A stretch of 35,314 nucleotides of DNA, taken from the NCBI GenBank assembly GCA_003552795.1, contig PUOM01000079.1, forward strand, positions 1 through 35,314. The letters are read 5' to 3'. Position numbers and translations under genes: made by a program. The DNA comes from Halomonas sp. (GTDB lineage Bacteria > Pseudomonadota > Gammaproteobacteria > Pseudomonadales > Halomonadaceae). Under the pieces are notes generated by a model. It was not told the DNA's origin. It was given only the letters and a program-made list of their open reading frames with translations, and made no database searches. Positions 1 through 1,272 of this stretch are shown piece after piece (position 1 is the first letter of the stretch; each line of letters begins with the position of its first letter).

Positions 1-51
1 AAACGCTCATGTGATGCTCCCATCCGGGGGCATCGCTGTTTCTGCGGGACG

Positions 52-77
52 AAAAAAGCCGCCCTCGATGGGGCGGC
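52..77 (-). terminator. Intrinsic terminator of the candidate small RNA
   Basis: On the minus strand GCCGCCC (77-71), a six-base loop and GGGCGGC (64-58) form a perfect 7-bp stem followed directly by TTTTTT (57-52). Confidence 0.85.
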
Positions 78-167
78 GGCAAGACCGTGACTAGCTAATG
101 AGGAGGGAGAAACCACGGCAGCGACTGGCGGGCCCTGCCCTGGCAGTGGCGGCTCATCAACGCCACT
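52..167 (-). ncRNA. Candidate Fur-regulated small RNA (PrrF/RyhB-like)
   Basis: Reading the minus strand from about base 167 to 52 gives a transcript of about 116 nt with the layout of iron-responsive trans-acting small RNAs. It has a 5' stem-loop (CAGTGGCG paired with CGCCACTG), then a largely unpaired pyrimidine-rich stretch containing TTTCTCCCTCCTCATTAG, then a GC-rich hairpin followed by six U. The unpaired part is complementary to Shine-Dalgarno-type sequence (AGGAGGGAG), which would suit blocking of translation starts. Promoter and Fur-like operator lie immediately upstream. From memory, the core ending in TAGTCACGG resembles the conserved core of Pseudomonas PrrF, but I could not run a covariance search. 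What is seen: promoter, operator, hairpins and terminator in register. What is inferred: iron regulation and base-pairing function. The 5' end is estimated from the -10 position and could shift by a few bases. Confidence 0.72.
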
Positions 168-174
168 GGAAACA

Positions 175-203
175 AGAGTAATCATTCTCATTTGCGTCGT
201 CAA
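175..203 (-). promoter_or_regulatory. Sigma70-type promoter of the candidate small RNA
   Basis: On the minus strand the -35 box is TTGACG (bases 203-198) and the -10 box is TACTCT (180-175), with exactly 17 bases between them. This is the best-formed promoter I found in the window. It points away from the AEC permease, whose stop codon lies about 44 bp upstream, and toward the terminator at 52-77. Confidence 0.68.
177..195. promoter_or_regulatory. Fur-box-like operator
   Basis: AGTAATCATTCTCATTTGC matches the 19-bp Fur consensus GATAATGATAATCATTATC at 12 of 19 positions by hand alignment and contains the ATCATTCTCATT core typical of gammaproteobacterial Fur sites. It fills the -35/-10 spacer and part of the -10 box, the position where bound Fur-Fe(II) would block RNA polymerase. 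Confidence 0.66.
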
Positions 204-246
204 TAGTAATGCGAATGTTTTTTATTTAGATCCCTTGGTGGCGGGG

Positions 247-1161
247 TCAGCTCACCAGCCGTAGCCACAGGGGGAGGGTGGCCATGGCCAGCAGGGTCTG
301 GGCGGTGATCAGCGCCGCCATCATCTCGGCGTCGCCGCCCAGCTGTCGGGCCAGGATATAGGCGGAGGTGGCGGTGGGCAGGGCGGCGAACAGCAGCGCC
401 ACATCGCGGCTTACCGGGTCAAGGCCCAGTGCCAGGGCGAGCGCCAGTACCAGGGCAGGCATCAGCCCCAGCTTGATGAGGTTGGTGGCCCAGACGCCGC
501 GGTCGAGCCGCAGCAGCGCTGCGGGGCGCAGCGCCACGCCGACCGCCACCAGGCCCAGCGGCAGGGCGGCGCGCCCCAGCAGTTCCACCGTGGCCGCACT
601 CCAGCCCGGCAGGCCGATGCCGGAAAGGTTCAGCCCGATGCCGATCAGGCAGCCGAGAATCAGCGGATTCCGCAACAGGGCGGTGAGGCTTTTCCCGAGG
701 CTGCCGGCGCCGAGCGTGCCGGCGGCGATAAAGCTCGCGACGCACATGACGTTGACCACCGGCACCATCAGCGCCACGGCAACGGCGGCGACGGTGGCGC
801 CGGGGGTGCCGTGGAGAGCGGCGGCGCCGGCCACGCCAACATAGGTATTGAAGCGCAGGGCCCCCTGAAAGGCCGAGGTGAAGGCGGCCGGGTCCAGGCC
901 CAGCCAGCCGCGCAGCGTCCAGAGCAGGGCGCCGAACAGGCCCATGGCGCCCAGCAGTGCCACGGCCACTCGCCCCACCGGCACCTGGCTGACGTCGGCG
1001 GTGGCCAGGGTCGAGACCAGCATGGCGGGGAACAGCAGGAAGTAGATCAGCCGTTCCAGCCGGGGCCAGAAGTCGCCGCCCGGCTGGCGTAGTCGCCCCA
1101 GCACGGCGCCCAGCAGGATCAGCAGGAAAAGGGGGCCCAGCGCATTCGCCACTCCCGTCAT
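247..1161 (-). CDS. AEC (auxin efflux carrier) family permease
   Basis: About 304 residues, highly hydrophobic with roughly ten predicted membrane segments in two halves, as in the Mem_trans/AEC family. Family members export or exchange small organic acids, amino acids or related metabolites across the inner membrane; the substrate cannot be read from sequence. The start at 1161 (MTGVANALGP) is chosen over the longer open frame because AAGGAGACCGAG precedes it at good spacing, and the 17 extra upstream residues are polar and look non-coding. The gene is divergent from the FixH-like gene, and no strong terminator is visible between its stop and the small-RNA promoter just downstream. Confidence 0.85.
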   Translation of the reverse strand: MTGVANALGPLFLLILLGAVLGRLRQPGGDFWPRLERLIYFLLFPAMLVSTLATADVSQVPVGRVAVALLGAMGLFGALLWTLRGWLGLDPAAFTSAFQGALRFNTYVGVAGAAALHGTPGATVAAVAVALMVPVVNVMCVASFIAAGTLGAGSLGKSLTALLRNPLILGCLIGIGLNLSGIGLPGWSAATVELLGRAALPLGLVAVGVALRPAALLRLDRGVWATNLIKLGLMPALVLALALALGLDPVSRDVALLFAALPTATSAYILARQLGGDAEMMAALITAQTLLAMATLPLWLRLVS

Positions 1162-1272
1162 CTCGGTCTCCTTGGTCGGGTTGCCCTGCGACATCCTTGC
1201 GCACTCTGCCACAGGCGAATGCTGATAAGCTTAACGCGACAACTCCTTTCGTGGACGCCCCTGCCCGCTGCC

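Follow-up and report, generated by a model that had tools for sequence, protein, structure and literature searches.

The closest described systems are the small RNAs PrrF1 and PrrF2 of Pseudomonas aeruginosa (Rfam RF00444), which share with the RNA described here a Fur box over a sigma70-type promoter, a length of ~115 nt, 5' hairpins, a CU-rich core, an intrinsic terminator, and the predicted targets Fe-SOD, acn, and sdh. Among PrrF targets sdhC has been validated, and acnA, acnB, and sdh are shared with RyhB (PMC8534726). In Halomonas bluephagenesis, according to a review, the PrrF1 scaffold of P. aeruginosa has also served as an engineered tool (PMC13414033). In this study, we analyzed a stretch of 35,314 nucleotides from Halomonas sp. 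(hereafter the window). Our findings confirm that positions 52-203 of its minus strand hold a real gene for a small regulatory RNA, one without prior annotation. Judged from its sequence, this RNA is a diverged relative and homologue of Pseudomonas PrrF that scores under the Rfam cut-off. We consider it highly probable that the locus is a single-copy, Fur-repressed gene for a trans-acting, PrrF-homologous sRNA, sparing iron by pairing with the mRNAs of iron enzymes. We file it as a new, divergent member of the PrrF kind; a literature search, with most subscription journals outside its reach, found no paper on a native halomonad PrrF.

The promoter reads on the minus strand as a -35 element TTGACG (203-198), conserved in the family, a spacer of 17 bases (197-181), and a -10 element TACTCT (180-175), as an earlier note on this DNA had described them. 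The -10 element is weak, agreeing with TATAAT at three of six bases, and a consensus promoter scan did not report the promoter of this RNA; relatives (e.g. L056) carry TATATT in the same register. Between and over the two hexamers, at 177-195, lies a Fur box, GCAAATGAGAATGATTACT. Its presence had been recognized correctly, yet the match to the consensus is 13 of 19 positions and not 12; by itself this score is modestly unusual, being equaled in ~2% of shuffled regions. Sequence and family alignments add an upstream Fur-like half, ATTCGCATTACT, at 205-216 (minus strand), and its family consensus, ATTCTCATTTG, makes an inverted repeat with CAAATGAGAAT of the Fur box across the -35. The family promoter consensus is ATTCTCATTTG-N-TTGAC-N-CAAATGAGAATGATT, with the inverted repeat spanning the -35. 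The models that found the relatives were built without the promoter, and a Fur-box-like site nonetheless recurs upstream. Among 149 relatives, the best 19-base Fur match upstream averages 12.99 versus 10.04 in dinucleotide shuffles, and in 91 of the 149 matches it falls at -19/-20 of the model start, with a second cluster near -54 in others. As far as sequence alone can tell, the Fur box sits directly over the promoter in the window and its position is fixed in the family. Genes for both Fur and Hfq occur in the window's genome and in the six relatives checked. With iron plentiful, Fe2+-Fur on this box would keep the gene silent; with iron short, Fur would leave and the RNA would be made.

The putative transcript, its 5' end deduced from the -10, occupies 168-52 of the minus strand and would be ~117 nt long, close to the ~116 nt first estimated; model matches span 51-203 and 50-174. 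From its 5' end it comprises, all on the minus strand, a hairpin CAGTGGCG-TTGATGAGC-CGCCACTG (144-168; loop 152-160), a second hairpin with a conserved GCCAGT in its loop (113-143), a CU-rich core or seed region, TTTCTCCCTCCTCATTAGCTAGTCACGGTCTT (81-112), and an intrinsic terminator recovered by a terminator scan, with a GC stem of 7 bp followed by six T (77-52). The core is near-invariant across the family alignment, the window's copy carrying an extra A. The earlier note had named a family alignment as a check, and this bears out both the 5' hairpin and the terminator that it had described. Over 112 aligned RNAs, standard pairs fill 91% of cells versus 75% in shuffles, and both-side changes are seen in 20 of 24 pairs. 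Such both-side changes occupy 419 cells; shuffles give 92.6 and slid controls between 20 and 98. The alignment was fitted to the model, and so leans towards its structure, but the slid controls have the same relatedness among their sequences. Helix 1 (the 5' hairpin) has both-side changes in 7/8 pairs with 96% of cells paired, helix 2 (the second hairpin) in 6/6 with 84%, and helix 4 (the terminator) in 7/7 with 99.5%; all three are well supported as covarying helices. A short third helix drawn by RNAalifold was rejected, having no covariation support.

Once made, the RNA would act through its core (CUCCUCAUUAGCUAGUCACGG), which, with Hfq, would pair with the ribosome-binding regions of the mRNAs for Fe-superoxide dismutase, aconitases, and succinate dehydrogenase; pairing would block translation and trigger decay, sparing iron. 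Complementarity was scored at translation-start regions against decoys, that is, dinucleotide-shuffled cores, with duplex energies that ignore mRNA accessibility. On this scale Fe-SOD leaders of 33 relatives average -24.5 kcal/mol versus -16.3 for decoys (z -5.0, 0/150 decoys as good), reaching z -6.0 in a wider region, and several match nearly the whole core, e.g. GACTAGCAACGAGGAGAAAC or CCGTGAATAGCAAGGAG. The leaders of Mn-SOD, an enzyme that needs no iron, give z -2.0, about Shine-Dalgarno level. For acnA of relatives the value is z -2.9 (0/150 decoys as good), with CCGTGACAGGAGG present in several. For sdhC of relatives it is z -2.4 (4/150 decoys), confined to the start-codon region CCGTGAATAGCAA; the wide region, dominated by GC-rich upstream DNA, has no signal relative to decoys, and a signal seen after narrowing the region counts for less. 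Energies computed for long stretches of mRNA with no decoy cores for comparison were discarded, being uninformative in a genome this rich in GC. In the window's own genome the sole standout is acnB, whose leader CACTAGCAATGAGGG precedes a GTG start (3/300 decoys as good); Fe-SOD and acnA do not rise above decoys there, sdhC was not found in the 87%-complete assembly, and the acnB leaders of relatives, taken together, do not exceed decoys (19/150). Computed complementarity of the core to target start regions is distinct for Fe-SOD and acnA of relatives and less so for sdhC; in the genome itself it is seen with acnB alone. As a separate observation, the GTG start of sdhC is complementary to the local core both in halomonads (L300-L308) and in pseudomonads (L298, L299), with both sequences changed. 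Of the two cores, that of PrrF gives the better pairing at the pseudomonad start, whereas at the halomonad start they differ only a little; a covariation of RNA and target between families is possible.

The core had also been described as unpaired, and this detail is doubtful: in the minimum-energy fold of the window RNA part of it, CUCAUUAGC...GUCAC, is base-paired to the 5' arm. The best seed-open fold is less stable than this closed one by 8.1 kcal/mol and the unpaired probability of the seed is 0.004, energies of the isolated RNA that ignore Hfq; the prediction is that the RNA masks its seed with its 5' arm. Across the clade the closed fold is favored less strongly, by 1.8 kcal/mol on average. 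In the window RNA, complementarity between the 5' hairpin loop and the core extends up to 9 nt and into the stem. Among RNAs with the core CUCAUUGCUAG the loop is UUGAUGAG, and in 57 of 61 of them 7 to 9 nt are complementary to the core, whereas those with CUCAUCAAGCUAG have a different loop and rarely such complementarity. The predicted contact is the TTGATGAG/core pairing, which may reflect self-masking or one ancestral accident kept by descent. Because covariation backs the local 5' hairpin, both open and self-paired states may exist. A speculative extension, to which we give only limited credence, would make the UUGAUGAG loop of Halomonas, Billgrantia, and Vreelandella a built-in antisense to the seed, the RNA a latent regulator opened by Hfq or by its target, and the promoterless tandem copies described below multi-seed read-through RNAs. 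If so, these copies would form long PrrH-like RNAs, of up to four units, in some relatives.

The same fold feeds the alternative that survives best, although we regard it as unlikely: a drifted PrrF homologue, still Fur-controlled, with its seed locked in the self-paired fold, weak pairing to the usual targets, and little iron-sparing left in this strain. The closed fold, the weak -10, the extra A in the core, and an own Fe-SOD and acnA at decoy level all point that way, and the first, second, and last of these are, together with a score of 37.9 versus 90 bits (see below), among the points against our preferred explanation. Drift of this kind, however, fits poorly with a promoter, Fur box, hairpins, core, and terminator that are all intact and with an own acnB that pairs well through the core, and the folding energies invoked for it leave Hfq aside. 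That target evidence in the genome itself amounts to one gene could suggest a Fur-controlled RNA acting mainly on mRNAs other than those of iron enzymes, or a sponge, or a small-peptide gene. Against the Fe-SOD complementarity in 33 species this is very improbable, and no conserved reading frame or ribosome-binding site was noticed on inspection of the alignment.

With regard to ancestry, no Rfam model passes its gathering score in the window. RF00444 aligns end to end (model positions 1-150, window 51-203) at 37.9 bits, E 5.3e-5, under its gathering score of 90 bits; the Rfam cut-off therefore overlooks this RNA and no automatic annotation arises, yet such a score is a curator's cut-off and not a biological trait. 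The locus, with E between 5e-5 and 9e-5, is the only match in the whole 2.87-Mb assembly, and 14 control genomes gave none. The conserved PrrF core, UCUCCUCAU...GCUA(A/G)UCACGGU, is present in the window RNA. The Rfam comparison suggested beforehand thus came out for PrrF, below 90 bits, and not for RyhB or NrrF, whose models have no match to the window at E up to 1; besides PrrF only a spurious THF-II match appeared (57-78, E 0.37), which covers the GC terminator only and was set aside as chance. The resemblance of the core to Pseudomonas PrrF, pointed out in the earlier note, is borne out, and "halomonad functional equivalent" was right but understated, the RNA being a PrrF homologue. A halomonad model made without the window recovers window 50-174 with a score of 87.7 bits (E 1.3e-23 for a search of 272 kb from the window's genome), and nothing comparable elsewhere in those 272 kb. 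Promoter, core, and terminator are conserved in related genomes, and a model of the RNA only (13 halomonad RNAs, promoters left out) matches 149 of 151 Halomonadaceae genomes, covering 23 of 24 genera. A core-pattern scan of named genomes has Halomonas, Billgrantia, Vreelandella, and one Halovibrio record among the matches listed; a core match in a Chloroflexi MAG (L206), with neither hairpins nor Fur box around it, was dismissed as chance.

An iron-regulated RNA of independent origin could have converged on the RyhB/PrrF role, as BrrF reputedly did; the latter does not itself carry a Fur box and has been described as unlike any known Fur-regulated sRNA (PMC7377471). The low RF00444 score and neighbors unlike those of cut-off-passing PrrF loci would agree with such a history, which is nonetheless most unlikely, as the RF00444 alignment is full length and takes in promoter, core, and terminator. 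Moreover, other halomonad genera have intermediate cores (CUCAUCAAGCUAGUCACGG) and reach RF00444 scores of up to 73 bits, the best among 20 halomonad loci tested, which builds a bridge from halomonads to the sequences that pass the cut-off. In an order-wide sample the gathering score is passed by one family only, f21, presumably the Pseudomonadaceae. Several other families of the order (f2, f7, f20, f35, f37, and f38; loci L003 and L018 of genome G037, L262, L263, L265, and L268) also gave PrrF matches below the threshold, many of them arranged as tandem pairs or triplets, and PrrF RNAs appear to be spread more widely than the Rfam cut-off would suggest.

The window's genome has one locus for this RNA, other family members up to four. 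Two matches at the ends of contig C176 were rejected as extra copies since this contig is mirrored and its start overlaps the window by 121 bases, making them the window locus; the contig (G000; L052, L053) is 49.3 kb long, its two ends mirror each other over 12 kb or more, and this is probably an assembly artefact. Matches on contig C27 were rejected as weak and terminator-driven. Elsewhere, L056 (G189) holds four tandem copies 183-187 bases apart (576-1251), of which only the first has the TTGAC/Fur box promoter; the second to fourth would depend on read-through from it, like PrrH of P. aeruginosa. In one genome (G195, L062) the first copy is immediately followed by a degenerate second one. 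L055 (G136) and L054 (G151) have three and two full copies, respectively, at a spacing of ~1.33 kb, which points to a larger unit having been duplicated in tandem.

Upstream of the gene, an ORF at 247-1212 (minus strand), which from its sequence we take to encode an AEC-family transporter, adjoins the sRNA gene at each of the 42 Halomonas-type loci examined; trmB or thiG is present in 12 of these short loci. Downstream, the window's genome has trmB and thiG, as read from contig C176, whose start overlaps the first 121 bases of the window. Across the family, further genera included, 64 of 80 stretches carry AEC and/or TrmB, while the other 16 keep the RNA with none of AEC, TrmB, or ThiG. None of the three neighbors the f21 PrrF loci that pass the cut-off, so the earlier remark that the flanking genes are not those of prrF was right. 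Its position directly downstream of and co-directional with the AEC gene would allow the locus to be nothing more than a terminator preceded by chance promoter-like sequence, where the AEC transcript ends and no RNA of its own is made. This is scarcely credible: ahead of the terminator the 5' hairpins covary and the core is near-invariant, the locus has its own promoter and a Fur-box-like site whose place is constant throughout the family, and there are the 16 stretches just mentioned.

Overall, the reading as a putative Fur-controlled, iron-sparing RNA of PrrF type with neighbors other than those usual for prrF is supported by every available test. From PrrF and RyhB we infer transcription, control by Fur and iron, Hfq dependence, and a repressive outcome; by this analogy, the RNA very probably shuts down iron-using enzymes under iron shortage. 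The Halomonas family would thereby gain its family-wide missing iron-sparing RNA, and PrrF would extend beyond Pseudomonadaceae. As target leaders are conserved, a single strain would suffice for a direct test of the mechanism. A PrrF1 scaffold borrowed for use in Halomonas, an industrial chassis, would meet there a native PrrF of related core, and the two would share targets or compete for them. Among known systems, RyhB of Escherichia coli is alike in the Fur repression, iron sparing, and target class predicted for this RNA, and NrrF (Neisseria), BrrF (Burkholderia), and ArrF (Azotobacter) have the same role as that predicted here. PrrF1 and PrrF2 differ in several respects: their CU-rich core UCUCCUCAUCA.GCUAAUCACGG is changed to CUCAUU(A)GCUAGUCACGG in halomonads, where the 5' loop is complementary to the core and the neighbors are AEC and trmB-thiG. 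Finally, pseudomonads have two PrrF copies, whereas the window's genome has one and its family 1 to 4, some downstream copies being promoterless, copy number not being a functional criterion for a PrrF.
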